From assembly GCA_022841365.1 (NCBI GenBank), contig JALHRP010000030.1:1-45753 (forward strand): a stretch of DNA of 45,753 nt. Reading direction: 5' to 3'. Each line of letters opens with the position of its first letter. Position 1 is the first letter of the stretch. A model generated the notes under the pieces. That model saw only the letters and a program-made list of their open reading frames with translations. It did no database searches and was not told the origin of the DNA. This DNA is from Chitinophagaceae bacterium. Its GTDB lineage: Bacteria; Bacteroidota; Bacteroidia; Chitinophagales; Chitinophagaceae. The position numbers and the translations under genes are program-made. Shown here piece after piece: positions 5,930 through 43,583 of this stretch.

Positions 5930-7345
5930 TTAAATGAACAGTTTTACCAGGAAGTAAGCAATACTGGCTATAACTGCACTCACAGGAATGGTTAATATCC
6001 ATGCCCATAAAAGATTTACAGTTACACCCCATCTTACAGCGCTTAAACGTTTGGTAGCACCTACACCAATGATAGCACCGGTAATAGTATGTGTTGTACT
6101 TACCGGAATTCCCATCTGCTCCGTCATAAATAATGTAACCGCACCGGCTGTTTCTGCACTCACACCTTCCAGCGGAGTTACTTTAGTAATTTTTGTGCCC
6201 ATGGTTTTAATAATTTTCCAACCACCACTCATGGTGCCGAGACCAATGGCAGTATAACAGGCCAATGGTACCCATGTTAATTCTTTCAGTGCGGCACCCA
6301 CATCCGGATATCTGGCTGTGCCATAATAGGCAACAAAAGCTGCACCAATAATACCCATTACTTTTTGTGCATCGTTACCGCCATGACCAACACTGAATGC
6401 TGCTGAAGAAAGCAACTGGAGCTTCTTAAACATTTTTGCAATACGGTATGCATTGGGTGTTTTAAATTTCTCTGCATATAAATACGCAACAATAAAAATA
6501 AAGGCAATACCCGCAATGATGTTAAACTGCAGACTGTTGTCTGATTTATCTAAAGCTTTTGAAAGCTTTGCCACGTCTACTGATGGATCTACTTCTGCTT
6601 TAATTTTTTCTGCAATTATTTTTCCGCCTGTAAGATTAAATTCTTTCAGGTAAGGTTTTGCTGCAGCAACAGTTGCACTGGCCGCTTCAAGCTTTGCTTT
6701 TATTTCGGGATCTTTTGCAGCTTCTTTCTTTAACTTATCAACCTTATAATACTTCCCCAAATTGTCTGATAATTTCGTTTGCTCAAATGTGTTAAACAGA
6801 AACCAAGTTCCGGTGAGGGCAAGGAATATAATTGCCAGTTTAATCCAGGTGTTACGCATGATTGTAATAATGGTAATGAAAATTGAAATGACCATACCAA
6901 TCAGCGGAGCCAGAAAAATGAAGAGTAAAGTTTTGATGATGATGGATAACTCAACAATATTTCCAAACGCCTGTGCCCCTTTCGTATAAAAAGCATGCGT
7001 AACGGCAGCACCTACAAAGCCACCCATTAATGTATGTGATGATGAAGAAGGGATGCCATACCACCAGGTTAACAGATTCCAGAAAATTGCGGCAATTAAA
7101 CCGGAAAGAATAACAGGGAGTGTAATATATTCTGTGTGCACCCATTTGCCGATTGTATTGGCAACTGCGTGATCCTGAAAAATAAAAAAGGCAACAAAAT
7201 TAAAAAAGGCTGCCCACAATACGGCCTGAAAGGGAGTAAGCACTTTGGTTGAAACAACCGTTGCGATGGAGTTGGCTGCATCATGAAACCCGTTGATGTA
7301 ATCAAACACAAGCGCCAGTGCTACAATGACAATTAAAAGCGTCAT
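5930..7345 (-). CDS. Inorganic phosphate transporter, PiT family
   Basis: The 471-residue polytopic membrane protein has the two PiT half-signatures: GFHDAANSIAT (residues 19-29) and GHGGNDAQKVMGIIGAA in the second half. About ten to eleven hydrophobic segments are visible, interrupted by a soluble insert (about residues 195-275, rich in Lys, Ala and Glu) between the halves. PiT proteins import phosphate with protons or sodium. It is the last gene of a minus-strand operon after a phosphate-selective porin and a DUF47 protein, 59 bases after the latter, and that grouping supports phosphate as the substrate. Confidence 0.95.
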   Translation of the reverse strand: MTLLIVIVALALVFDYINGFHDAANSIATVVSTKVLTPFQAVLWAAFFNFVAFFIFQDHAVANTIGKWVHTEYITLPVILSGLIAAIFWNLLTWWYGIPSSSSHTLMGGFVGAAVTHAFYTKGAQAFGNIVELSIIIKTLLFIFLAPLIGMVISIFITIITIMRNTWIKLAIIFLALTGTWFLFNTFEQTKLSDNLGKYYKVDKLKKEAAKDPEIKAKLEAASATVAAAKPYLKEFNLTGGKIIAEKIKAEVDPSVDVAKLSKALDKSDNSLQFNIIAGIAFIFIVAYLYAEKFKTPNAYRIAKMFKKLQLLSSAAFSVGHGGNDAQKVMGIIGAAFVAYYGTARYPDVGAALKELTWVPLACYTAIGLGTMSGGWKIIKTMGTKITKVTPLEGVSAETAGAVTLFMTEQMGIPVSTTHTITGAIIGVGATKRLSAVRWGVTVNLLWAWILTIPVSAVIASIAYFLVKLFI

Positions 7346-7404: not shown

Positions 7405-8055
7405 TTAAGCGTATTTTACAATGATTGATTCAATAACATTTGCTGCATCTTCACACTTATCTGTAGCAATTTCCATTACCTGATAAATCTCTCTTTTCTT
7501 AATCACTTCTTTTGCATCGTTTTCTGTTGCAAATAAACGTTCAATGCTGAAATCGAAAATATCATCGGCCTGGTTTTCGATGCTGTTTACACGAACCAAT
7601 GCATCGGTAATCTGGCGCATGTTCTTCATGTCTTTCAACTCCATCACTGCAATTTTGATGTTTTCGCAGGCTTGTACAATCAGGTCGGCCATTTTACCAA
7701 AGCTTTCGTGTACAGGGTCTACACGGTAAAAGTTGATTTTTTTAGCCGATGCAAAAATGTAATCTGCCACATCATCCATTGCAGATGCCAGGTAGTGTAT
7801 ATCTTCTCTGTCGAACGGAGTAATAAAGTTGCGGCTCAGTTCAGTAAAGATTTTATGTGTAAGATCATCGTTCTTATGTTCAAGATCTTCTATCTGGCGC
7901 AGGATCACTTCTCTGCTTTCAAAAGAAGGTTCTGTTACCATCTTTTTTAACAGATGAGCCATTTCAAGGGAGGTTACAGATACCTGTTCAAACAACTGGT
8001 AAAAAACCCGGTCCTTGGGTAAAAAGATCTTCATGAAGGAATTGATTGCTGACAT
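7405..8055 (-). CDS. DUF47 family protein, PhoU-like partner of the Pit transporter
   Basis: The 216-residue all-helical soluble protein matches DUF47 (PhoU-related). It starts MSAINSFMKIFLPKDRVFYQLFEQ and has the characteristic DLTHKIFTELSRNFITPFDREDIHYLASAMDDVADYI segment (about 77-113) and a C-terminal VMEIATDKCEDAANVIESIIVKYA. The metal-coordinating acidic clusters (DREDIH, DDVAD, DKCEDAAN) typical of PhoU folds are present. DUF47 genes usually sit next to pit and are thought to modulate transport. Here it is the middle gene, 19 bases after the porin stop. Confidence 0.92.
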   Translation of the reverse strand: MSAINSFMKIFLPKDRVFYQLFEQVSVTSLEMAHLLKKMVTEPSFESREVILRQIEDLEHKNDDLTHKIFTELSRNFITPFDREDIHYLASAMDDVADYIFASAKKINFYRVDPVHESFGKMADLIVQACENIKIAVMELKDMKNMRQITDALVRVNSIENQADDIFDFSIERLFATENDAKEVIKKREIYQVMEIATDKCEDAANVIESIIVKYA

Positions 8056-8074: not shown

Positions 8075-9295
8075 TTAGAAATTTAATTGTGCCTGTATGC
8101 GTAACAGATTACCTTTTTGGAAATTCTGCCGCAGCTTTGAATCCTCAAACCGTCTTTCAGAAATAGTATAAGCAGTTGTAAGCTCGAAATATTTATTTAC
8201 CTGCCACTCCATACCCATTTCCACTTCTTTTACATTATAAGCTCTTGCATCCAGTTCGTGTTTTTTTCCGCCATTGTACTGCTGTACTCTCGTGTAGGGG
8301 AAGAAAAACATGTCTTTATGTTTCTTGCTTTTAATTCTTCCATACAAAGTAGCATAACCACCTTTTAAGTTTCTTACTTCTATTGAATCTTTCAACGGGT
8401 TATACTGCGGACCTCTTCCCCAATTGTATTCTGTAAGTAAACCGATGGGGTTTGGATACAGATTCAACGTAACAGCTGCCCGTTCATCTTTAAATGCAAA
8501 ACCATTAGCTGCTTTAACGCCGGCCGATCTCAATTCGGCTGGTAATACATATTCGCCGGTATAAGCCTGTACACCCGGTTCAAGCACCTGATTCTTGATT
8601 TTGATGGGATAGCTGATTCTTGAAACGATGTGCACTTTTTTATTTTGTTCGGGTCTGTTGGCGGTTTGTCCGTTATAAACACCAAATGCAATTACGCCAT
8701 AATCACCTGATCCTTTTCTGTTATCATTTATGAATTCCGGATATTTTGTTCTGATATTTTCCGGAGCCCAGTATAAAAAAGCACCAAGATCCCGTTCATT
8801 TGATAAGGCACTGTTCAATGCGTCGTTACGGTCAAGCGGTAAACGGTTCTGGCTCGACTGCATGTTTTCAAAACCAAATGGCACTTTACTCTGACCGATT
8901 CTGATTCTGAATTCATTTTTCCTGTCAAAGCCAACATCTACATACGCATCTCTCAATTGAAAAATATTTTGTGTTGTGCCTATTGCACTTCCAAAATCGG
9001 GTTGAATGTAGAAATATACATTCTTTGAAAGATTTCCGCTGATGATGATCCGGCCTCTTCTGATTCCAAATCCTCCTCCTGCTCCCCATGAACGGTCGCA
9101 TTGTTCGCACTTCAGGTTTTCGTTCGTTTCTAACAATCTGTTATAACGTACCTGCATATATCCACGGATAGAAAATGATTCGTACCAGTTTTTTTTGGGT
9201 GCAGGTTTAATTGAGTCTGTCTGACTTTTTTGGGCCATCACATTGTTGCAAAGCAAAAACGTGATGAAAACCATCGCCCTTGATTTTGTTTTCAA
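8075..9295 (-). CDS. Phosphate-selective porin O/P family outer-membrane protein
   Basis: This 406-residue protein starts with a signal peptide (to about residue 21, NVMAQ). It then has the FSIRGYMQVRYN entry strand, GGFGIRRGRIIISGNLSKNVYFYIQPDF, and alternating amphipathic strands ending in QAQLNF with a C-terminal Phe, as expected of a beta-barrel porin. The RxRxRI...G.l.....fyiqpDf pattern is the OprO/OprP family signature. It is the first gene of the operon with DUF47 and Pit, and together they give an outer- plus inner-membrane phosphate route. An operator-like 11-bp repeat pair and a promoter lie upstream (9321-9377). Confidence 0.9.
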   Translation of the reverse strand: MKTKSRAMVFITFLLCNNVMAQKSQTDSIKPAPKKNWYESFSIRGYMQVRYNRLLETNENLKCEQCDRSWGAGGGFGIRRGRIIISGNLSKNVYFYIQPDFGSAIGTTQNIFQLRDAYVDVGFDRKNEFRIRIGQSKVPFGFENMQSSQNRLPLDRNDALNSALSNERDLGAFLYWAPENIRTKYPEFINDNRKGSGDYGVIAFGVYNGQTANRPEQNKKVHIVSRISYPIKIKNQVLEPGVQAYTGEYVLPAELRSAGVKAANGFAFKDERAAVTLNLYPNPIGLLTEYNWGRGPQYNPLKDSIEVRNLKGGYATLYGRIKSKKHKDMFFFPYTRVQQYNGGKKHELDARAYNVKEVEMGMEWQVNKYFELTTAYTISERRFEDSKLRQNFQKGNLLRIQAQLNF

Positions 9296-9320
9296 TAGTA
9301 TTATCTTTTTAATTGCAGCG

Positions 9321-9348
9321 CAAAGGTGCTGAAAACAACTGTGAGCAA
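9321..9348 (-). promoter_or_regulatory. Promoter of the porin-DUF47-Pit operon
   Basis: The minus strand shows TTG (9348-9346), 17 bases, then CACCTTTG (9328-9321), seven of eight positions of TAnnTTTG. Transcription would start near 9315, about 20 bases before the ATG at 9295. The Pho-box-like pair at 9358-9377 lies directly upstream. Confidence 0.45.
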
Positions 9349-9357
9349 GGGGGAGGG

Positions 9358-9377
9358 CTGTATTACCAAATTGTTAA
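9358..9377 (-). promoter_or_regulatory. Pho-box-like repeat pair C, upstream of the porin operon
   Basis: On the minus strand TTAACAA begins at 9377 and GTAATACAG at 9366, 11 bases apart. The same TTAACAA/ATAATAT arrangement with an 11-base period occurs upstream of the phoB-like gene (16228-16245). The pair lies 10 bases upstream of the predicted -33 element. Confidence 0.5.
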
Positions 9378-9385
9378 CTCTCCAC

Positions 9386-9413
9386 AAAAAAGCCCCGCCA
9401 GAAATGGCAGGGC
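9386..9413 (-). terminator. Minus-strand terminator inside the shared control region
   Basis: GCCCCGCCA (9392-9400), loop GAAA, and TGGCAGGGC (9405-9413) form a stem with one mismatch, followed on the minus strand by six T (9391-9386). No coding gene lies upstream on that strand, and the porin gene starts 90 bases further down. It therefore ends either a small RNA or an attenuated leader. Confidence 0.75.
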
Positions 9414-9450
9414 GTTGCAATTAAAAGATAATACAGGCTTTTTTTGGAGA

Positions 9451-9470
9451 CTGTATTAAACCAGGTTACC
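9451..9470 (-). promoter_or_regulatory. Pho-box-like repeat pair B
   Basis: On the minus strand GGTAACCTG begins at 9470 and TTAATACAG at 9459, 11 bases apart. It is a second copy of the unit found in array A: the 12-base string CAGGTTACCAAA on the plus strand occurs at 9462-9473 and again at 9542-9553, exactly 80 bases apart. It lies inside the candidate small RNA, so it may be an extra operator or a fold element. Confidence 0.4.
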
Positions 9471-9518
9471 AAATGATTTTGTAATCTATCTGCAACCGGG
9501 ACAGCAAATATTATTTTT

Positions 9519-9561
9519 CTGTATTATGAAAATGTTACCGGCAGGTTACCAAAGCATTAAT
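9519..9561 (-). promoter_or_regulatory. Pho-box-like array A, four 11-bp units
   Basis: On the minus strand four related heptamers start exactly 11 bases apart: TTAATGC (unit from 9561), GTAACCT (9550), GTAACAT (9539) and ATAATAC (9528). A -7-like AATATTTG follows at 9512-9505. The geometry (7-mer plus 4-base spacer) is that of PhoB-type operators that replace the -33 element. Confidence 0.55.
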
Positions 9562-9652
9562 TTTTTTTTTAGAATGAATAGTTTATTGTTTTTGCATGCA
9601 ATTACCAGAGCAAAAAATCCTTTACTCATAAATATACTCTTTCAGGTTTCTG

Positions 9653-9730
9653 TTAACATTGCGTTCATGTGCAGATAATATTTCCTTAACATACCCGTTA
9701 CTTTAAGGTAACATACCAAAAGTTTCTTTG
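9653..9730 (+). promoter_or_regulatory. Pho-box-like array D and promoter of the TonB receptor operon
   Basis: Six units start every 11 bases from 9653: TTAACAT, TTCATGT, ATAATAT, TTAACAT, GTTACTT and GTAACAT. TAACATACC recurs exactly at 9687 and 9709. The array ends at 9718 and is followed by TTTCTTTG (9723-9730), a seven-of-eight match to TAnnTTTG. The start site would be near 9736, 12 bases before the ATG at 9748. The array covers the -33 position, as in PhoB-activated promoters. Confidence 0.6.
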
Positions 9731-9747
9731 CAGCACAAATAGAAGAT

Positions 9748-12558
9748 ATGCAAAGGAATGCTTACAGGAAACTAATTGCTTTATTACCCGTCTTATTCAT
9801 CACTCTCACATCAGCAGCACAATCACTTAAATTAAACGGCCGTGTGCTTAACCAGAAAAACGAACCTATAGCCGGGGCCTCTGTTGCTCTTTCAGGGAGC
9901 GGAAAAGTGGTTGCCGCTGATGTGGAAGGCCGATTTAGTATTGCACTGGACGCAGGTAAAAAGTATACACTCACCGTTACTGCTGTTGGTTACCAAACCA
10001 AGGCAGTAGATGAAGTAGAAGTAAAATCAGCAGATGAAAATGCACTGATCATTATTTTAAATGTGGCTGCAAAAGAAGGAACAGAAATCATCATCCGCAG
10101 TACAGCCCGTAAAGAAAACACATCCGGCTTATTAAGTTTTCAACGCAACAACACTTCTTTATCCAGTGGTTTATCGGCCGACTTTATCCGTCGTACTCCC
10201 GATAAAAATACAGGCGAAGTATTAAAGCGTGTAAGTGGTGCATCTATTCAGGACAACAAGTTTGTGATCATCCGTGGATTGAGCGACCGTTACAACCAGG
10301 CATTAATCAACGGTGCACAGTTGCCCTCATCAGAACCCGACAAAAAAGCTTTTTCGTTTGATGTGATCCCTTCGCAGTTAATTGATAACATCATCATCAA
10401 CAAAACAGCTACGCCTGATTTAACGGGTGAGTTTGCAGGTGGATTGGTGCAGATCAACACAAAAGATATTCCTACAAAAAATTCACTTACACTCGGCTTT
10501 GGTCTCGGATTTAATACACAATCTGCTTTTAAGCCGTTCATCAGTAACGAACGTGGGTCAACCGATTACTTAGGTTTTGATGACAGAAGAAATCTTCCAT
10601 CATCCTATCCGCAGAAATATGGTTTGTTTAATACACTGCCCGTTGAGCAACGCAGGCAAATTGCTGCAGATTTTCGTGATGATGTGTGGGCAGAGCAAAA
10701 TTCTGTAGCCGGTCCCATTCAATCATACAATCTAACATGGGCAAATGCTGTAAGAAGTGAAAAAGCAGGAGCGTTTGGTTCGGTGATTGGTCTTACGTAC
10801 CGCAATTCAAAATTGCTGTTTAATGCAAGTAAACAATTGTTTGAAAGAGATGGCCGCCAGGCATTCTTCTCTTATGAAGATGAGCAAAACAAGTACAGCA
10901 CAACTGTGGGTGTATTGGCAAATTTTGCATGGACAAAAAAGAATCATAAAATAGCACTGAAGAATTTATTCAATCAGCTTTTTGAAGATAATTATTATAA
11001 CCGCCAGGGACCAAACACTGAAAACTTACAGGATATCTATCTCCGCTCTTCGGTACTGAACCAGCGTAGTCTGTTATCTTCTCAGCTGGAAGGAACACAT
11101 ACTTTCTGGCGTGATCTGAAGGCAAACTGGAACATCAATTATTCTTATAACAGTAAAGAACAACCGGATCTGCGTGTATTAACTTATGGCCGCAGTCTCG
11201 GCACCAACGATCCGTATAGTATCAACCTGCGTGGAAACAATACCAACCGTTTCTTCAGCAAACTTACAGATCATGCCGCCGGCTATAATTTTTCATTGGC
11301 ATACAGTTTTAAAATAGGCGAACAAAAACAAACCATAAAAGCAGGAGGGAATGCACTGGTTCGTTTCAGAGATTTCCAGTCCATTATTCTGGGCTTTAGC
11401 GATCCTGCAGATGCAAGCTTAAATTTTCTTCCTTACGACCGCATATTTGCAAAAGAAAATTTCACAAAAGGAAACGGGTTTGAAATGACAACTTCATTAC
11501 AAAACCCGCAGGATAAATATTTTGGTATTTCTGCATTGAACGCAGGTTATTTAATGTTTGATAATAAACTGGGTGAAAAGTGGCGTTTAGTATGGGGTTC
11601 ACGGGTAGAAAGTTTTCAGCAGTTTTTAAAATCGCAACAGCAGGGAACAGATAAAGCGGTAATCATAAACACAGAGAAAACAGATCTGTTGCCTTCATTT
11701 AATTTGACGTATAACCCGCAATCAAAAACAAATATCCGCATTGCAGGTTCACGTACAGTTGCAAGACCTGAGTTTCGTGAAATTGCTCCCTTTATATTCT
11801 TTGATTTTGAAACCATTGCTTCAACTGCCGGTACACCTGATTTAAAACGCAGCAGCATTTTAAATGCAGATGTACGCTATGAGTGGTATCCAAAAGCAGG
11901 CGAGGTAATTTCAGTTGGTGCATTCTACAAACAGTTCACTGATCCAATTGAATTACGTTTGAACAGTGCCAGTGTTGCAACACGCCGTCAGTATCAGTTT
12001 CAAAATGCTGTTAGTGCAGACTTGTACGGAGCAGAATTTGAAATCAGAAAGAGTCTTTCCTTTTTATCAAAATCGAGTGAGTGGTTAAAACGATTGTATA
12101 TATCGGGTAATGCTTCATTCATTTTCTCAGAAGTATTGCTTGGTAATAAAGATGCGTCGGGTAATCCATTGCCTGCAACAAGCCGTCCGTTACAGGGCCA
12201 GTCTCCTTATCTGGTGAATGCAGGTTTACAGTATGATTCTGAAAGTGGTTTTGGCGCATCTCTTCTCTACAATAAAATTGGTCAGCGTCTTGCATTGGTT
12301 GGTAACAATGATTTTGGCGATATCTACGAGCGCCCAAGAGACTTACTGGATATACAGGTTTCTCAAAAACTGATGAAGCGTAAAGCTGAAGTGCGTTTAA
12401 CCATCAGCGACTTGTTGAATCAGCCAATTCAGACTTATGAAAACAGAAACAATGCAAAAAGTTATCAGCCGGGTGCTGATAAGACCTTCAGTTCATTTAC
12501 ACCGGGAACAACATTTACCGTTGCATTTACTTACGATTTTGACTTAAAAAGAAAATAA
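9748..12558 (+). CDS. TonB-dependent outer-membrane receptor, likely phosphate-regulated
   Basis: The 936-residue protein has a signal peptide (about 1-24, ending TSAAQS). A carboxypeptidase-regulatory-like beta-sandwich follows (about 27-105, LNGRVLNQKNEPIAGASV). The plug domain (about 135-245) includes NTGEVLKRVSGASIQDNKFVIIRGLSDRY and EFAGGLVQINTKD, and the rest is a 22-strand-type barrel ending FTYDFDLKRK. It is not a SusC: the SusC motif and a SusD partner are absent. The next gene, 36 bases on, encodes a beta-helix lipoprotein that is probably its surface partner. The operator-like array before it and neighbouring phosphate genes suggest induction in phosphate starvation. The substrate is unknown. 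Confidence 0.9.
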   Translation: MQRNAYRKLIALLPVLFITLTSAAQSLKLNGRVLNQKNEPIAGASVALSGSGKVVAADVEGRFSIALDAGKKYTLTVTAVGYQTKAVDEVEVKSADENALIIILNVAAKEGTEIIIRSTARKENTSGLLSFQRNNTSLSSGLSADFIRRTPDKNTGEVLKRVSGASIQDNKFVIIRGLSDRYNQALINGAQLPSSEPDKKAFSFDVIPSQLIDNIIINKTATPDLTGEFAGGLVQINTKDIPTKNSLTLGFGLGFNTQSAFKPFISNERGSTDYLGFDDRRNLPSSYPQKYGLFNTLPVEQRRQIAADFRDDVWAEQNSVAGPIQSYNLTWANAVRSEKAGAFGSVIGLTYRNSKLLFNASKQLFERDGRQAFFSYEDEQNKYSTTVGVLANFAWTKKNHKIALKNLFNQLFEDNYYNRQGPNTENLQDIYLRSSVLNQRSLLSSQLEGTHTFWRDLKANWNINYSYNSKEQPDLRVLTYGRSLGTNDPYSINLRGNNTNRFFSKLTDHAAGYNFSLAYSFKIGEQKQTIKAGGNALVRFRDFQSIILGFSDPADASLNFLPYDRIFAKENFTKGNGFEMTTSLQNPQDKYFGISALNAGYLMFDNKLGEKWRLVWGSRVESFQQFLKSQQQGTDKAVIINTEKTDLLPSFNLTYNPQSKTNIRIAGSRTVARPEFREIAPFIFFDFETIASTAGTPDLKRSSILNADVRYEWYPKAGEVISVGAFYKQFTDPIELRLNSASVATRRQYQFQNAVSADLYGAEFEIRKSLSFLSKSSEWLKRLYISGNASFIFSEVLLGNKDASGNPLPATSRPLQGQSPYLVNAGLQYDSESGFGASLLYNKIGQRLALVGNNDFGDIYERPRDLLDIQVSQKLMKRKAEVRLTISDLLNQPIQTYENRNNAKSYQPGADKTFSSFTPGTTFTVAFTYDFDLKRK

Positions 12559-12594
12559 ACCCTTTACAAATTTTTTTAAATACAAACACAGAAT

Positions 12595-13962
12595 ATGAAA
12601 CAGCTTTTATGGTCTCTTGCTGCTTTAACGTTAGGATTTACAGCCTGTATTAAAGTTAACATTGATGATTCAACAACAAACAGCGGAACAACAACGCCTG
12701 TTGGTTCAACGTTGCAGGAGCGTATCATCAGCTCACGCATTCTTACAGGAAACATCAATGAAAACGTTGAACTTCCTAAAGGAAAATATACGTTGAAAGG
12801 ATATGTTTATGTAAATAACCGTGCCCGTTTAACATTTGCCGCAGGCAGTACCATTGTAAGCGACACCATAAATAAAGGGGCATTAATTATTGAGCAAAAC
12901 TCCCGTTTAATTTGCGATGGTACAGCAAGTGAACCAATTGTATTTACTTCGGGTAAAGCTCCGGGACAACGTAAGCCGGGTGATTGGGGTGGTATTGCCA
13001 TTGCAGGTAATGCACCAACCAACCGTTCAACTCCTCCAATTTTAGAAGGTGGTATCAATGCGGTATATGGTGGCTCACTGGCAAATGATAACAGTGGTAT
13101 TCTCCGTTATGTACGTATTGAATTTGCAGGAATTGCAGCCGATCCCAACTCAGAGATCAACGGTTTAACATTGGGTGGTGTGGGTAATGGTACCATCATT
13201 GAAAATGTACAGGTATCCTATGGTAATGATGATGCGTATGAATTTTTTGGTGGCACTGTCAATGCAAAAAACCTGATTGCATTTGCAACTGCTGATGATG
13301 ATTTTGATTTTGACTTTGGTTATGTTGGTCGTATTCAGTTTGCTGTTTCACTGCGTGATCCGAAATTTGTAGATGGTGGAGATGCAGGTAATGGTATTGA
13401 GTGCGATAATGACGGAGCCGGTACCACAGCAGGCCCTCGTACACGTCCTCAGTTGAGCAATTTTACTTTTGTTGGTCCAAATAATGCATCAGGAACGTTG
13501 GCGAATCACAATTTTACAACCCGTTTCCGTCGTTCAACACATTTTTCTTTAACAAATTCTGTATTAATTGGATACCAGAAAGCAGGTTTTCAGTTTGAAA
13601 GTGATTCAACGGCAGCTGCATATATTGATGGACGTTCACGTTTCCGTCATAATCTGGTTCATGCTGTTGCAGAACCATATAAAGTACAATCTACCTCTTT
13701 AATCAATGCTGCAAACGTACAATCCAAAGCAGAAGGTGTTGACAGTTGCAAAACATTTGCTTCTGCAAATGATGTTATGTTAGAGAATCCGTTTAGCCTT
13801 ACTGCTCCTAACTTTTTACCAAAGGCAGGCAGCCCGGCATTAACAGGTGCAAGTTTCTTTGGTTTAACAGGATTTACAACAACAACTTATGTTGGTGCAT
13901 TTGGTACTACCAATTGGATGGCAGGCTGGACAAGCTTTACTCCGCAAACAAATGTGTATTAA
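12595..13962 (+). CDS. Outer-membrane lipoprotein with predicted beta-helix, partner of the TonB receptor
   Basis: This 455-residue protein has a lipoprotein signal (GFTAC, Cys18). It then shows repeating short strands with Gly and Asn turns (LTFAAGSTI, GALIIEQNSRLICDGTASEPIVFTSG, GGIAIAGNAP, GILRYVRIEFAGI, GTIIENVQVSYGNDDAYEFFGG, KNLIAFATADDDFDFDFGYVG), a pattern typical of right-handed parallel beta-helices. Aspartate clusters (DDDFDFDF, about 236-243, and NGIECDNDGAG) could bind calcium or other metals. It forms one operon with the TonB receptor (36-base gap) and a strong terminator at 14022-14051. I infer a surface-exposed ligand-binding or polymer-degrading partner; no catalytic motif was recognised. 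Confidence 0.75.
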   Translation: MKQLLWSLAALTLGFTACIKVNIDDSTTNSGTTTPVGSTLQERIISSRILTGNINENVELPKGKYTLKGYVYVNNRARLTFAAGSTIVSDTINKGALIIEQNSRLICDGTASEPIVFTSGKAPGQRKPGDWGGIAIAGNAPTNRSTPPILEGGINAVYGGSLANDNSGILRYVRIEFAGIAADPNSEINGLTLGGVGNGTIIENVQVSYGNDDAYEFFGGTVNAKNLIAFATADDDFDFDFGYVGRIQFAVSLRDPKFVDGGDAGNGIECDNDGAGTTAGPRTRPQLSNFTFVGPNNASGTLANHNFTTRFRRSTHFSLTNSVLIGYQKAGFQFESDSTAAAYIDGRSRFRHNLVHAVAEPYKVQSTSLINAANVQSKAEGVDSCKTFASANDVMLENPFSLTAPNFLPKAGSPALTGASFFGLTGFTTTTYVGAFGTTNWMAGWTSFTPQTNVY

Positions 13963-14021
13963 AAAATAAATATCAGCCACTGGCAGATAAAACAATTTCC
14001 TTAAGCAAGTATCCTCTATTC

Positions 14022-14051
14022 CGCCTCCTGTTCTCAGGGGGCGTTTTTTTT
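14022..14051 (+). terminator. Intrinsic terminator of the TonB receptor operon
   Basis: CGCCTCCTG (14022-14030) and CAGGGGGCG (14035-14043) form a 9-bp stem with one G-U pair and a TTCT loop, followed by eight T. It lies 60 bases after the beta-helix lipoprotein stop. Confidence 0.9.
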
Positions 14052-14095
14052 AACAGTAAAAATTTTTTCTTTGCTGCTTTCAGTCTCTTCTATAA

Positions 14096-14151
14096 ATAAC
14101 AATTAATCAATGCTGCGGTAATGGTTTGGTAAAACTGCGTTATCATATTTG
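14096..14151 (+). promoter_or_regulatory. Pho-box-like array E and promoter before a candidate small RNA
   Basis: Units start every 11 bases: ATAACAA (14096), TCAATGC (14107), GTAATGG (14118), GTAAAAC (14129) and TTATCAT (14140). CATATTTG (14144-14151), seven of eight positions of TAnnTTTG, overlaps the last unit. The distance from the GTAAAAC unit to the end of the -7 element (22 bases) equals that in array D. The only TTTG upstream (14125-14128) is 15 bases from the -7 element, too close for a normal -33. Confidence 0.45.
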
Positions 14152-14156
14152 CAACC

Positions 14157-14262
14157 TGCTGACAGAATTCCCATCTGTCAGCAATTCGCAATCAAGCTTT
14201 ATTTTCTCATGACTTAACCGGGAACTTCACCGTTCTGATTCTTCAGGACGGTCTTTTTTTTT
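14157..14262 (+). ncRNA. Candidate small RNA between the TonB operon and phoR
   Basis: A transcript of about 105 nt is suggested by the -7 element at 14144-14151 and the terminator at 14229-14262. Its 5' end would fold into a perfect 8-bp hairpin (GCTGACAG 14158-14165, CTGTCAGC 14175-14182), followed by an unstructured A/T-rich middle and the terminator stem. The only ATG opens a two-codon frame, so it is not coding. It lies between two terminators and apart from any gene. I do not recognise the family. Confidence 0.45.
14229..14262 (+). terminator. Second plus-strand terminator, 3' end of the candidate small RNA
   Basis: ACCGTTCTG (14229-14237) and CAGGACGGT (14244-14252) form a 9-bp stem with one G-U pair and a 6-base loop, followed by a C and nine T. 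The TonB operon already ends at 14051, so this second terminator implies a separate transcript. Confidence 0.85.
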
Positions 14263-14382
14263 CTTTGCCACTAAGGCGGGAAGACAGGAAGAAGCACAAA
14301 GACAAAACCTAAGGGGTAATATAAAACAGTAGATAAGTGTACTTTCCTTTGCATCGTTGCTCCTTTGCGAGCTTTGCGTGAA
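14263..14382. repeat. Dispersed TTTGC/GCAAA intergenic repeat
   Basis: Two stretches made of degenerate CTTTGCGNCTTTGCG-type words in opposite orientation (14263-14312 and 14346-14382) fill the gap before phoR. A similar word string (CTTTGTGCCTTCGTGTC) lies at 39404-39420. Such strings are common between genes in this phylum. No gene is present here. Confidence 0.4.
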
Positions 14383-14391
14383 AAAAAGAAT

Positions 14392-15453
14392 TTAATCTCC
14401 CTCAACATCTACACGCCCCTGCAGTGTAAAGCCAAATGTAGTGCCTACATCCAGCCTGCTGCGTACATGCATCATTTGATTGTGTGCTTCAATAATATGT
14501 TTGCAGATAGATAATCCCAAACCGCTGCCTCCTTCTTTTCTGCTGCGGGCTAAATCTGTGCGGTAAAAGCGTTCAAAAATTCTTGTGAGATGTTCTTCGG
14601 CAATACCATAGCCATCATCACTCAGTTCAACCAACATCGTTGCATCATGTGTTTTGTAAACACTGAAAACAATGCTGCCGTTTTGTTTGCCGTATTTTAT
14701 GGCATTATCTATAAGGTTAATTAACACCATGCGGATCTTTTCCTTATCTGCATAAACTGTAATGGGAAGTTCAGATCCTTTTTTAATAGATGTTTTAATA
14801 TTTTTTTCTGCAGCTTTTATGGAAAGACTGTCGAACACCTCATTCACCAGGTCCTGGATTACAAAATTTTCTTTGTATAATAGTTGTTGTCCGCTTTCAA
14901 GCTTTGAAATTTCATCCAGATCATCAACCAGATTCACTAAGCGGTCAATGTTCTTAGAGGTGTTGAGCAGAAATTTTTTAGCCACTTCTTCTTTATGCAT
15001 GGCGCCGCTCAACAACGTATCAACATAACCCTGCACCGCAAAAATGGGTGTCTTTAATTCATGACTCAGATTTTGTAAAAACTCTTTGCGGTATTGTTCG
15101 TTTTGTTTCAGCAGTTCAATTTCCTGTTTCTTTTGCTCGGCCCATTCTTCTACTTCCGCACTTACTTCCTGTAAACTTTTTTCGGGCAGTAACGATTTAT
15201 TAAAAAACTCTTCCCGTTTGGTTGCTTTTGTTTGTGAAATGAATTTATAAATGAGTTTGATATGTCGGTAAATAAACCTGTCGGTAAAAAAACGAATGAG
15301 CAGGTAGCTGATGATGAACAGCACTGCAAAACTGATAACAGCAATCCACCAGCTCCTGATAAAAAAATAGTTGGCTAAACCAACCAGTAATGAAATGGTA
15401 AATGCATTGATAGCGGCAACCTGTACAGGGTTGAGTTGACGGGAGTTGAACAT
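14392..15453 (-). CDS. Sensor histidine kinase, PhoR-like
   Basis: This 353-residue kinase has two adjacent membrane helices (about 11-31 and 35-54) with almost no periplasmic loop, then a coiled linker. The HisKA domain has LSHELKTP with the phosphorylated His131. The HATPase domain has the N-box NLIDNAIKYGK (Asn250), G1 DDGYGI and G2 GGSGLGLSICKHII. The lack of a periplasmic sensor domain is usual for PhoR-type kinases, which sense through partner transporters or PhoU-like proteins. It follows the PhoB-like regulator by 39 bases, and the phosphate genes nearby support a phosphate role. Confidence 0.9.
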   Translation of the reverse strand: MFNSRQLNPVQVAAINAFTISLLVGLANYFFIRSWWIAVISFAVLFIISYLLIRFFTDRFIYRHIKLIYKFISQTKATKREEFFNKSLLPEKSLQEVSAEVEEWAEQKKQEIELLKQNEQYRKEFLQNLSHELKTPIFAVQGYVDTLLSGAMHKEEVAKKFLLNTSKNIDRLVNLVDDLDEISKLESGQQLLYKENFVIQDLVNEVFDSLSIKAAEKNIKTSIKKGSELPITVYADKEKIRMVLINLIDNAIKYGKQNGSIVFSVYKTHDATMLVELSDDGYGIAEEHLTRIFERFYRTDLARSRKEGGSGLGLSICKHIIEAHNQMMHVRSRLDVGTTFGFTLQGRVDVEGD

Positions 15454-15492
15454 GCTTCTTTGCGAAATTTTGCAAACGAAGGTAGAAAGGAA

Positions 15493-16179
15493 TTAAGCAG
15501 CAGAAAGCTCAAACTTATACCCAACACCTTTAACAGTGGTAATACAGTCTATCTCCAGCTTCTGTCTGATTTTACGGATATGTACATCAATGGTTCGGTC
15601 GCCCACAATTACATCAGCACCCCATACCTGATTTAAAATTTCATGACGTAAGAAAACCCGTCCGGGTTTTGATGCAAGCAGTGCAAGTAATTCAAATTCT
15701 TTTTTGGCGAGAATAATATCCTGTCCTTTATGACGAATGATAAACTGCTCCTTATCAATTTGCAAATCACCCAGTTTAATAATGGTTTCATCGGCACGGA
15801 ATGTGCGACGGAACAATGCATTCACCCGGCTGATGAGTACTTTGGGGCTGATGGGTTTGTTTACATAATCATCTGCTCCCATTTCAAGGCCCTTTACATG
15901 GCTGCTTTCATCGCTCAATGCAGTAAGGATAATGATGAGTGTCTGTTCAAACCCGGGTTGTGAACGCAGGATCTGACAAACTTCCATTCCTGTTTTGCGG
16001 GGCATCATCACATCTAAAATGATGAGATCAGGATGCTGCTGCCTGGCAACAATCAACGCTTCATCACCGTCCTTTGCTTTCAGAACAGTAAATCCTTCAG
16101 CAGTCAGATTGTATTCAAGTATCTCAAGAATATCCGGCTCATCGTCGGCAATCAAAATTTTTTTTCCTTTGGGTTCCAT
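15493..16179 (-). CDS. Response regulator, OmpR/PhoB family
   Basis: The 228-residue protein has a receiver domain (about 7-122; acidic pocket Asp12/Asp13, phosphorylated Asp56 in LIILDVMMPRKTG, Thr86 and Lys108 in the VNKP motif). A winged-helix DNA-binding domain follows (about 135-225, with EFELLALLASKPGRVFLRHEILNQVWG and DRTIDVHIRKIRQKLE). It is the first gene of the pair with the PhoR-like kinase. Its own upstream region has an 11-bp-spaced repeat pair (16228-16245) like those before the TonB receptor and porin operons, so it probably binds them and controls its own gene. PhoB is the best match, though other OmpR-type members cannot be excluded. Confidence 0.92.
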   Translation of the reverse strand: MEPKGKKILIADDEPDILEILEYNLTAEGFTVLKAKDGDEALIVARQQHPDLIILDVMMPRKTGMEVCQILRSQPGFEQTLIIILTALSDESSHVKGLEMGADDYVNKPISPKVLISRVNALFRRTFRADETIIKLGDLQIDKEQFIIRHKGQDIILAKKEFELLALLASKPGRVFLRHEILNQVWGADVIVGDRTIDVHIRKIRQKLEIDCITTVKGVGYKFELSAA

Positions 16180-16189
16180 GACTGTGTTG

Positions 16190-16222
16190 CAAATTTAGAT
16201 GCCTGTTTCCATGCGGAGCCAA
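16190..16222 (-). promoter_or_regulatory. Promoter of the phoB-like gene
   Basis: The minus strand has TTG (16222-16220), a 22-base spacer, and TAAATTTG (16197-16190), a perfect TAnnTTTG. The start codon at 16179 lies 10 bases after the -7 element, so the leader would be only a few nucleotides. Confidence 0.6.
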
Positions 16223-16227
16223 TCGTA

Positions 16228-16245
16228 ATATTATAAAATTGTTAA
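16228..16245 (-). promoter_or_regulatory. Pho-box-like repeat pair F, upstream of the phoB-like gene
   Basis: On the minus strand TTAACAA begins at 16245 and ATAATAT at 16234, 11 bases apart. The distance from the second unit to the end of the -7 element (44 bases) nearly equals that in the porin promoter (45 bases). This fits autoregulation. Confidence 0.5.
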
Positions 16246-16321
16246 CGAGTTTTTGCATTTTGGGCCCGTTTTTGCCTGCAACCATGCAAAGCTCAAAGTA
16301 TTCTTATTGGAAAATTGAAGT

Positions 16322-16329
16322 TAATTTTG
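16322..16329 (+). promoter_or_regulatory. -7 element giving a possibly leaderless message
   Basis: TAATTTTG is a perfect TAnnTTTG and ends 6 bases before the ATG at 16336, where transcription should begin. This supports ATG 16336, not the upstream TTG at 16315, as the start of the large exported protein. No -33 TTG is found at normal spacing (the nearest, 16307, is too close). Confidence 0.5.
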
Positions 16330-16335
16330 CTACCA

Positions 16336-18528
16336 ATGAATAAAATTGTTTTACTACTCCTCTTTATATTGTCCGTTGTTGTTGCTTCTGCTCAAACCGC
16401 ACAAAACAGAATTTCTTTCGATACAGGGAAGGTTGTTATTCCCATGAACAGAGTTATCTGGCACGATAATATTGATAAGGAACAAAAAAGAACGGATAAG
16501 GTTGATGGGAAAGTAGATCAGTTTCTCAAACTGAGTAACAATGATGACCTCAATATCCAAATAACAGATGTTGTTTTGCGCAGAGTAGATCTGTTACAGG
16601 AGAATATTGAGCGGATGAAAGCCGATAATAATTTTAAAATCGGTTACCTGCGTTCGGTAAGAGAATTGCTGCAGGCCATTGCAATCAACGCAAAGCAAAA
16701 AGATATCCCGGCTCTTATTCCGCAAATTTTTGAGAGTTATGAAGAATGTATGCGCAGGCAGAACGATAAACAAAGCATCCTGCCGGTGTTTCAAAAATTA
16801 CCTTTCCAGGCAGCAGAATTACTTGCAACTGTGTTTGCACAAAATCCGGAAATGAATGAAGTGAAGAAAATGGTATTTCTGAAAAAGACCGCCATTAATC
16901 CGTCATTTATTATGCAGGGAATTGATGCATTTCAAAACGAACCGTTTGCAGACAGTCTGGTGCTCATTGCTGCAGATAAAGTTCCTCTTGAAGTATATAC
17001 CTATGCACAGGCTGTAAAAACAACAGCGGCAAAAGTAATACGCCGCAATACCAATCCCAAAGTGCAAACCATTGCCAAATTGAGCAGCATCATGAATGGT
17101 ACTTTGTATTTGCCTTTTTTGGATGAGCTGTTGAATAATCAATTAACGATTGATGAAATAAAAGCAGTGGTTGAAAACGAGATGGCTTATTATAAACTGC
17201 TTGTAAAAACACAAATTAAATACCACAGCCGGATGGCGGCTGCGGATACTCCTGTGCTTGCATCGGTTTTATATCAAATGCTGGAACGTAAAGCAACCGA
17301 TGCATTTGTAAATGTGATGAATGAGTTGCACGATTCACCGGATCCTGTTCGCATGCGTGTATCTGATGCGTTAACATCGCAGGAAATTTATTACCTGATT
17401 GTTACAACAGAAGAAGTGATCTATACCAGTACGTACACCAAACTGTACGATCGTATGATGACCCGTTTCCCCGGGCGAAGAAGTGATTCACTGTTGATGA
17501 GTGTGCATCTTGATAAGTTTAAAAAGTTTATCAAAATGGCAGCGAACTATAACCGTCTGGATGATTTTTTAAAATCAATGCCTGAGCTGCATGGTAACCA
17601 GTTGATGTATGCGTTTGTAAATGGTCTGCAAAAAACAAACTCATTAGAAGATGCAGTGGATGTGGCAGACAGCTATGGCAGTATCAACAATGTTGATCTG
17701 CAGAATTTTTTAAAGACACAAGTAAAACTGAATTATGAAAACAGTCTGAAGAATAAAGACCGGAAAGGAGAAGTGATTTATAATATCCTGTTCACACTGT
17801 TTAAGTCGGCTTCGGATACATCCATGAACTTAAGTGCCATACTTGGTATTCCTCCGGTGTATAAAGTTGATTTCAACAGTATAGCAGATGATAGTGGCCG
17901 TGTGGTGCAGCATGTGTTTTTTTATGGCGATGAAGACGGCGTAACTTCTTACCGGAATTTTATGGGATTGTTTAATGGCAAGCCCGAGTGGAAAGTGGTA
18001 ACAGGAAAAGAATGGGTGACCATTACATCAACAAAAGGAAAGCCATACAGTATCTATGCTAATCTTCCGTTAGATTATAAGCAGGATCTGGATCAGCAGG
18101 CACAACAGCATTTAATTGAGTATTTAACAAAGAACCGCATCAATCCAACTTTTGTGGTGCACCGTGGGCACAGTTATCATTTAAAATACACCATTCAGCA
18201 AATGATGCCGTCTTCACGAATTGTAATGTTGGGTTCCTGCGGAGGGTATCAGAATCTTGCAAAAATTTTAAATGTAAATGAAGACGCACATATCATTTCA
18301 ACGAAGCAGGTAGGTAGTTATTCAGTAAATGAACCTATTCTGCGTGCTTTGAATGAAACTATCCGTAACGGAAATAATATTGAGTGGATTCCCATTTGGC
18401 AACAAATTACCAACTCCGTAAAGAGTGATCCAAAAGCAAATGAATTGATGAAAGATTATGTGCCTCCACATAAAAATCTCGGCGCTATTTTTATTAAAGC
18501 ATATCGAAAAGCAACCGGTGAAATGTAA
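16336..18528 (+). CDS. Large exported protein with a caspase-like C-terminal motif
   Basis: The protein has 730 residues from ATG 16336, which gives a clean signal peptide (MNKIVLLLLFILSVVVASAQ). Residues about 30-480 are helical and repeat-like without a recognised domain. Near the C-terminus a predicted strand leads to HRGHSYH (His609, His612), and a second strand MLGSCGGY places Cys635 23-26 residues later. Strand-His-Gly-His and strand-Gly-Ser-Cys-Gly order is that of clan CD peptidase-like folds (caspase, gingipain, CHAT, separase). This is my inference; the spacing is short and the fold is unproven. It diverges from phoB and is followed by a DUF5690 gene. It is probably periplasmic. Confidence 0.65.
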   Translation: MNKIVLLLLFILSVVVASAQTAQNRISFDTGKVVIPMNRVIWHDNIDKEQKRTDKVDGKVDQFLKLSNNDDLNIQITDVVLRRVDLLQENIERMKADNNFKIGYLRSVRELLQAIAINAKQKDIPALIPQIFESYEECMRRQNDKQSILPVFQKLPFQAAELLATVFAQNPEMNEVKKMVFLKKTAINPSFIMQGIDAFQNEPFADSLVLIAADKVPLEVYTYAQAVKTTAAKVIRRNTNPKVQTIAKLSSIMNGTLYLPFLDELLNNQLTIDEIKAVVENEMAYYKLLVKTQIKYHSRMAAADTPVLASVLYQMLERKATDAFVNVMNELHDSPDPVRMRVSDALTSQEIYYLIVTTEEVIYTSTYTKLYDRMMTRFPGRRSDSLLMSVHLDKFKKFIKMAANYNRLDDFLKSMPELHGNQLMYAFVNGLQKTNSLEDAVDVADSYGSINNVDLQNFLKTQVKLNYENSLKNKDRKGEVIYNILFTLFKSASDTSMNLSAILGIPPVYKVDFNSIADDSGRVVQHVFFYGDEDGVTSYRNFMGLFNGKPEWKVVTGKEWVTITSTKGKPYSIYANLPLDYKQDLDQQAQQHLIEYLTKNRINPTFVVHRGHSYHLKYTIQQMMPSSRIVMLGSCGGYQNLAKILNVNEDAHIISTKQVGSYSVNEPILRALNETIRNGNNIEWIPIWQQITNSVKSDPKANELMKDYVPPHKNLGAIFIKAYRKATGEM

Positions 18529-43510: not shown

Positions 43511-43533
43511 ATTACAATGTTTTCGGGTTTACT

Positions 43534-43574
43534 AAAACAAAACTCCTGCCATCAAAAGGCAGGAGTTTTGTTTT
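43534..43574. terminator. Intrinsic terminator after the T9SS sugar-dehydrogenase-like gene
   Basis: A perfect 17-bp stem (43534-43550 and 43558-43574, core CTCCTGCC) with a 7-base loop is flanked by A and T runs. It lies 10 bases past the stop of the gene at 43584 and ends its transcript on the minus strand. Confidence 0.93.
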
Positions 43575-43583
43575 AACAAGTAT

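Follow-up and report, generated by a model that had tools for sequence, protein, structure and literature searches.

A tandem 11-bp operator, probably the Pho box of a PhoB-like regulator, in the phosphate locus of a Lacibacter-type Chitinophagaceae bacterium, with long arrays that appear to precede short RNAs

The 45,753-nucleotide stretch of DNA analyzed here (GenBank assembly GCA_022841365.1, contig JALHRP010000030.1; hereafter the window) makes up all of contig C30 in a 4.56 Mb genome of a Lacibacter-type Chitinophagaceae bacterium, and it carries blocks of KTAAYA direct repeats at an 11-bp step, one helical turn, that are very probably Pho boxes bound by the PhoB-like response regulator encoded at 15493-16179. 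The longer arrays, of four to six units, stop 9 bp short of the -7 elements of a TonB-dependent receptor gene and of two predicted small RNAs, RNA-A and RNA-C, and two-unit boxes lie two repeats further upstream at phoB and at a porin gene. An earlier note on this DNA had proposed a local Pho regulon under the adjacent PhoB/PhoR-like pair, and this is the best reading of our data, with boxes at fixed distances before phoB, DUF47-PiT, porin and receptor and with regulator binding as its predicted step. The confidence expressed here belongs to the Pho boxes only; the part played by the RNAs is weighed separately.

The same note had described six blocks of heptamers with an exact 11-base step. 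Read-back confirmed the letters at all block coordinates, and of the six blocks five hold up. The six-unit array at 9653-9718 (plus strand) exceeds chance: its units keep an exact 11-bp step and match KTAACAT at 35 of 42 positions, a score that did not exceed 30 in any of 60 dinucleotide shuffles of the window, nor 29 when the period was set to 8-10 or 12-14 bp. The block at 9519-9561 (minus) holds four units at 11 bp, for which the noted register was one base early yet consistent; that at 14096-14146 (plus) holds five, which by themselves are weak (scoring 28 over six positions, where shuffles reached 30) and are kept in relatives; and those at 9358-9377 and 16228-16245 (both minus) hold two units each, neither significant alone in the window. 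The sixth block, 9451-9470 (minus), was rejected as a Pho box: in a common register its GTAACC and TTAATA stand 10 bp apart, four relatives do not preserve it as a box, and a predicted transcript covers it.

TAnnTTTG is the -7 element of Bacteroidota promoters. A compound rule, requiring 19 or more of 24 matches over four KTAAYA units spaced at 11 bp and a TAnnTTTG-like -7 element 8-10 bp downstream, selects exactly three places in the 45.7 kb window: 9675-9730 (plus), 14096-14151 (plus) and 9505-9560 (minus). In 100 dinucleotide shuffles the rule averaged 0.14 matches and never found more than 2, and at periods of 8, 9, 10, 12, 13 and 14 bp the window itself yielded 0, 1, 0, 2, 0 and 0. The near-constant spacing to the -7 element that the earlier note had remarked on holds, as the element starts 9 bp past the last 6-mer in the long arrays and 31 bp past it in the two-unit boxes, a difference of exactly two repeats. 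The predicted promoter elements are as follows.

9653-9714 (+), six-unit array of the TonB receptor promoter, 11-bp Pho box (block 9653-9718)
9723-9730 (+), receptor -7 element TTTCTTTG, 9 bp past the last 6-mer
14096-14139 (+), RNA-C Pho-box array, the first four of the five units described earlier
14144-14151 (+), RNA-C -7 element CATATTTG, 9 bp past the array
9519-9560 (-), four-unit RNA-A Pho-box array
9505-9512 (-), RNA-A -7 element AATATTTG, 9 bp past the array
9358-9377 (-), two-unit forward Pho box of the porin promoter
9298-9328 (-), porin -7 element CACCTTTG (9321-9328) and short leader (RNA-A-pairing part 9298-9317)
16229-16245 (-), two-unit forward Pho box of phoB, 31 bp before the -7 element at 16190-16197

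Comparison with related genomes supports this assignment. In an alignment of the porin/receptor intergenic region from five genomes of the same genus, the six-unit array, the 9358-9377 box and most of the 9519-9560 array are kept, the 9358-9377 box without variation in all five, and the flanks and lengths diverge; the phoB box at 16228-16245 reads TTAACAATnnnATAATATT in 14 of 14 same-genus genomes. The receptor promoters were compared in those 26 genomes of the family, out of the 64 with the lipoprotein, whose fetched stretches included the receptor start, on either strand and with three duplicate loci dropped. All 26 carry a four-unit array, scoring 19-24 of 24 (mean 22.2) at 11 bp, against means of 15.5-16.4 and a highest single value of 19 at 8, 9, 10, 12, 13 and 14 bp. 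At phoB (30 loci of 53 matches) the distance from a strict forward box to the -7 element is 31 bp in 19 and 32 bp in 3, and at a looser threshold 24 loci have a forward box and 7 a reversed one, with one locus holding both and none holding neither. At DUF47 (30 loci of 39 matches) a reversed box lies 35-38 bp before the -7 element in 20; the porin stands ahead of DUF47 in five of the other 10, and in 24 of the 30 the reverse strand is the better-scoring one under a matrix trained on the phoB boxes. Reversed boxes stand about 5 bp, or half a helical turn, further from the -7 element than forward ones, and the two forms are probably equivalent, since some genera use one at phoB and some the other. 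The conservation before orthologous genes in related genomes on which the earlier note had made its proposal depend is borne out, at the receptor in every genome compared and at phoB and DUF47 at fixed distances.

The 11-bp period also stands out across whole loci. Over 56 Pho-locus stretches (628,897 bases) the array rule gave 50 matches at 11 bp against 1, 0, 7 and 0 at 9, 10, 12 and 13 bp, and over 20 further stretches (286,278 bases) it gave 30 against 0, 4, 0, 2, 2 and 2 at 8, 9, 10, 12, 13 and 14 bp, some overlapping loci and adjacent -7 candidates being counted twice in both sets. A set meant as unrelated was left unused as background, as it held Pho-locus stretches (L184, L188, L192, L193, L196, L197 and L199). 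By gene names assigned by eye from the starts of the proteins, arrays in other genera lie upstream of metallophosphoesterase-like genes (genomes G016, G034, G019 and G030), alkaline-phosphatase-like genes (G016 and G032) and glycosyltransferase-like genes (G017 and G033), as well as further TonB receptors, lipoproteins and, in G047, a response regulator at the place of phoB. The blocks share three characteristics of a Pho box, namely tandem direct repeats at 11 bp, a fixed distance to the core promoter and, in several genera, phosphate-acquisition genes downstream. Two arrays were also seen away from the phoBR locus: in L189 (G001:C11:1784568-1784623) four units with a -7 element precede another TonB receptor-like gene (by eye), and in L066 (G006:C138) four units lie upstream of two FII lipoprotein homologues.

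The genes of the locus are arranged as a minus-strand row of porin, DUF47 and PiT, a receptor and 455-aa protein divergent from it, and, downstream of that pair, a minus-strand kinase and regulator.

8075-9295 (-), Porin_O_P porin, first gene of the porin, DUF47, PiT row; TTG start
7405-8055 (-), PhoU_div/DUF47 protein
5930-7345 (-), PHO4/PiT phosphate transporter
9748-12558 (+), TonB-dependent receptor with CarboxypepD_reg and Plug domains; counterpart of Fjoh_0545 by gene order and domains, not by sequence comparison
12595-13962 (+), 455-aa protein with a lipoprotein-type start (by eye); FII-like by gene order
14392-15453 (-), PhoR-like histidine kinase
15493-16179 (-), PhoB-like response regulator

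Pfam and NCBIfam searches with the 455-aa protein (12595-13962) gave no match; the lipoprotein was found in 64 of 79 genomes, and the order DUF47, receptor, lipoprotein, kinase, regulator recurs, complete or partial, in the fetched stretches of relatives. In the phoBR cluster of Flavobacterium johnsoniae (PUSIV), OprP, PhoR, PhoB, a TonB receptor and an FII lipoprotein likewise stand together (PMC8115612), and the window locus differs in also including DUF47-PiT. On phosphate depletion the listed fold changes (FC) were 8.02 for the receptor, 9.91 for FII, 3.06 for PhoB and 0.76 for PhoR, and the authors describe the low-phosphate loci as tightly repressed under nitrogen and iron limitation (PMC8115612). 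By gene order and domains the receptor/lipoprotein pair of the window matches this strongly induced pair, and the phosphate response of genes in the same order speaks for the Pho regulon that had been proposed.

Several results weigh against this interpretation of the boxes. The two-unit pattern occurs 51 times genome-wide against 66 in reversed-pattern controls; the three-unit pattern occurs 41, 32, 25 and 23 times in four genomes against 25, 33, 25 and 38, with only G000 (41 against 25) above its control; the box-31-(-7) pattern with at most one mismatch gives 28 matches in nine genomes against 28; and the reversed form has 11 matches where its control has 36, with DUF47 promoters making up three of the 11. 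With no mismatch allowed, by contrast, the box-31-(-7) pattern has a single match in each of the nine genomes, always at the phoB promoter. Isolated boxes carry little information, and long arrays and exact spacing are what is informative. The earlier note had named random genome-wide density of the motif as evidence that would count against it, and the short patterns are indeed at chance density, which speaks against isolated boxes and leaves the conserved arrays untouched. As to the proteins, the two best NCBIfam matches of the regulator fall below the PhoB cut-offs (TIGR02154, 228.7 against 296.2 bits; NF053854, 210.3 against 270 bits), and the kinase falls below those for PhoR (TIGR02966, 218 against 334.2 bits; NF053855, 174.8 against 500 bits), its best NCBIfam match being PnpS at 244.3 bits against a cut-off of 400. 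OprP of F. johnsoniae was uninduced (FC -1.3, not significant; PMC8115612), and binding of the boxes by PhoB is, in this organism, a prediction from sequence. The Pst operon was rejected as an additional target: 12 of 14 PBP_like_2 loci (12 genomes) lie directly behind another frame (by eye) and have no box, one of the other two has a box-like match lacking a -7 element and one has none, in a survey that included no search aimed at the Pst ABC genes.

These points bear on two other explanations of the arrays. An 11-bp period arising by chance in AT-rich intergenic DNA would fit the two-unit boxes, which are not significant in the window alone, and the short genome-wide patterns, which in most tests equal or fall below their controls; we consider it extremely improbable, given that no shuffle reached the three rule matches and that no other period behaves like 11 bp in the 26 receptor promoters. 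An explanation with somewhat more to commend it, and one that we still regard as improbable, makes the arrays operators of a different OmpR-family regulator responding to a different signal, with the phosphate genes as bystanders. The sub-threshold regulator scores suit it, as do the best solved-structure matches of the regulator (MtrA, RegX3 and RpaA). Against it stands the recurrence of the same box before phoB, PiT, porin, receptor and FII-like genes in several genera, and before phosphatase-like genes in some, together with the phosphate-responsive F. johnsoniae genes of the same order and the repression of their loci under nitrogen and iron limitation (PMC8115612). A Pho box bound by the PhoB-like regulator is the explanation that we carry forward.

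Under phosphate starvation, phosphorylated PhoB would tile the arrays and recruit RNA polymerase, turning on the receptor/lipoprotein pair, phoBR itself and, as predicted, short terminator-ended RNAs. RNA-A, or RNA-B in sister lineages, may then pair with the short porin leader and block its translation, and RNA-C might act likewise on other mRNAs through a seed that matches start codons. Control through the reversed DUF47-PiT box could be of either sign; in Sinorhizobium a PiT operon is repressed by PhoB. The porin box could exert control of either sign, since OprP of F. johnsoniae is uninduced (PMC8115612).

The long arrays call for one correction to the earlier note, as two of the three precede predicted short RNAs and no protein gene.

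9386-9498 (-), RNA-A, predicted small RNA; 5' end inferred; terminator 9386-9414; porin-leader-complementary part 9416-9434
14156-14262 (+), RNA-C, predicted small RNA; 5' end inferred; seed TTTTCTCATGA 14202-14212; terminator 14229-14262
13994-14050 (+), RNA-B, conserved TTTCCTTAAGCAAGTATCCTCTA followed by a terminator; in the window, the 3' untranslated region of the lipoprotein gene

Behind the array at 14096-14146 no open reading frame of at least 90 aa occurs on the same strand before 16315, and the stretch 14156-14262 folds with a z score of -5.8. The RNA-C unit consists of an array, a -7 element, a variable 5' part, TTTCTCATG and a terminator, and with the seed UUUCUCAUG it was found in 19 genomes, comprising 11 of 14 same-genus genomes and 8 of 31 other family genomes with fetched loci; in G001 the seed reads TTTCTCATT. 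The upstream arrays of 18 measured genes score 17-21 of 24, with a mean of 19.2 at 11 bp against means of 15.2-15.7 at other periods, and in 15 of them 9 bp separate the best array from the -7 element; in the nineteenth genome (G316) the array was read by eye. A terminator hairpin is predicted in 19 of 19, with z below -2 in 17 and at -1.98 and -1.33 in the others, and its stems vary in sequence between genera, the terminator being the only structure common to RNA-C. No reading frame is shared among the 18 examined. RNA-C thereby has the predicted attributes of a small RNA, an own promoter, an intrinsic terminator and no conserved reading frame. In the stretches searched, TTTCTCATG also occurs at seven coding or array-less places (L250, L256, L269+, L274+, L276, L292 and L297), of which a loose terminator rule accepted one (L256). 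By eye, G020, G033, G212 and G019 have array-driven, terminator-ended RNAs that lack the seed. None of five Rfam matches at E up to 1 falls within 9300-9600 or 13950-14300.

A screen of the available loci for RNA-C targets returned 14 gene starts reading ATGAGAAA as candidates. Counterparts of the gene divergent from phoB, which in the window encodes an exported-looking protein of 737 aa (16315-18528; no match in a Pfam search), have this start, complementary to the RNA-C seed, in 7 of 11 same-genus RNA-C genomes; it is missing from the gene in G000 and G012. Separately, L260 (labelled as a Beijerinckiaceae metagenome-assembled genome, BOG) encodes DUF47 and PiT 67-68% identical to those of the window along with an RNA-C-like seed and terminator, and is probably a misbinned Chitinophagaceae contig.

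RNA-A lies between its array (9505-9560) and its terminator and folds with a z score of -4.25, and its 9416-9434 part is complementary to the porin leader and could form 18 contiguous pairs with it (G-U allowed) in four of five genomes. RNA-B, TTTCCTTAAGCAAGT followed by a terminator, is present in 13 of 14 same-genus genomes, the fourteenth (G005) being partly covered; it directly follows the lipoprotein stop in most of its genomes and has its own array in G006 and G008. In six of the 13 an exact 11-nt complement of RNA-B lies between the -7 element and the start codon of the DUF47-divergent porin-like gene, and the pair next to this 11-mer covaries (GGAAAU/AUUUCC in G010, G001 and G004; GGAAAA/UUUUCC in G006, G002 and G011). 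Among about 400 permuted 11-mers, RNA-B itself excluded, one reached six genomes. The G006 RNA-B gave a fold z score of -0.29 over a stretch that ended before the hairpin. Occurrence of RNA-B beyond the genus was sought and rejected: it was found in 5 of 298 genomes of the order, all five same-genus, and its pattern in 84,980 genomes returned 19 stretches, of which 9 encode Pho-locus proteins, another 9 are chance-like and the remaining one (L267) is the G009 contig.

On this evidence we propose, tentatively and at somewhat less than even odds, that the Pho locus is a mixed protein/RNA switch, in which PhoB arrays would drive uptake proteins together with small RNAs bearing leader or start-codon seeds; the porin would be silenced by interchangeable RNAs, RNA-B in some Lacibacter lineages and RNA-A in others, with each RNA and the porin leader evolving together, and RNA-C (seed UUUCUCAUG) would be a wider PhoB-dependent RNA aimed at AUGAGAAA-type start codons. 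A number of findings count against such a switch. The window's own RNA-A/leader duplex has 12 unbroken pairs, the run being broken by one extra A. RNA-B has no porin-leader match in 7 of 13 genomes; an RNAduplex ranking over whole loci was not discriminating, placing the porin leader first, after the RNA's own site, in G006 only; and a target search in eight genomes lacking a porin match gave 8 matches against 16 for the reversed pattern. RNA-C, found in 8 of the 31 other-genus family genomes as mentioned above, was found in none of 8 genomes of other families in the order, the stretches being incomplete in both groups. Three of the 8 RNA-B matches, from G003, G007 and G013, fall in the leader of a single LTA-synthase-like gene (by eye), and the other five fall in open frames. 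In L276, L282 and L280, from those three genomes, the leader has the RNA-B complement GCTTAAGGAAA directly behind TACTTTTG, a possible second target of RNA-B from a search that as a whole stayed below its control.

The RNAs could instead be terminated or read-through leaders and 3' ends with no action in trans, RNA-A for example attenuating a distal porin promoter. Since RNA-A is located immediately upstream of the porin gene and on its strand, the inverted repeat 9298-9317/9416-9434 could fold within one transcript, and the usual place of RNA-B directly behind the lipoprotein stop fits as well. RNA-C sits less easily with it, being convergent with the kinase gene and followed by no frame of at least 90 aa on its strand before 16315, and so do the own RNA-B arrays of G006 and G008 and the conservation of RNA seeds beside variable 5' parts. 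We hold this account to be rather unlikely, and retain the mixed switch as our tentative proposal. Elsewhere in the window, weak Rfam matches to rnk_leader and sRNA41 (43527-43639) lie below the gathering score at the 3' end of a minus-strand frame (43584-45683) and are probably due to chance.

Among known operators, the Escherichia coli Pho box consists of tandem direct repeats at an 11-bp step (8+3) about 10 bp upstream of the -10 element, and the cyanobacterial SphR box CTTAACCT (8+3) has a TTAAC core, a period of 11 and at least three tandem units (PMC1906773). The boxes described here resemble the former in their tandem 11-bp repeats close upstream of the core promoter and in an OmpR/PhoB-family regulator, and differ in the KTAAYA unit, its place 9 bp before a TAnnTTTG-like -7 element, the presence of up to six units and the reversal of some boxes; they share core, period and minimum unit number with the latter, and differ in phylum, promoter type and gene set and in that the window also has RNA genes. 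As predicted from sequence, the box adds a new variant to the PhoB/SphR direct-repeat operators, and the newer part is that two of the three long arrays appear to precede short terminator-ended RNAs. The phosphate response of Bacteroidota has itself been studied; the main text of the F. johnsoniae paper (PMC8115612) contains none of the terms 'Pho box', 'binding site' and 'motif', and its available parts name no small RNA. PhoB of Bacteroides fragilis is known, and the available text speaks generally of a Pho box at pst, with no consensus given (PMC3547664). In Sinorhizobium meliloti small RNAs rise on phosphate starvation and some candidates have predicted PhoB sites, with no conserved PhoB site evident for the induced RNAs in the available text (PMC2573895), a difference from the 18 measured RNA-C genes with array scores of 17-21 of 24. 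Among the papers listed for the open literature, judged by titles and abstract beginnings, none was evidently concerned with a Bacteroidota Pho box or a phosphate small RNA.

Together, the consensus and the fixed spacing rules would make Pho promoters predictable in this group of Bacteroidota, in either orientation. Provided that the RNAs are real, they would constitute a small-RNA circuit for the phylum, in which PhoB-driven RNAs are joined to a porin leader that switches its RNA partner between sister lineages.

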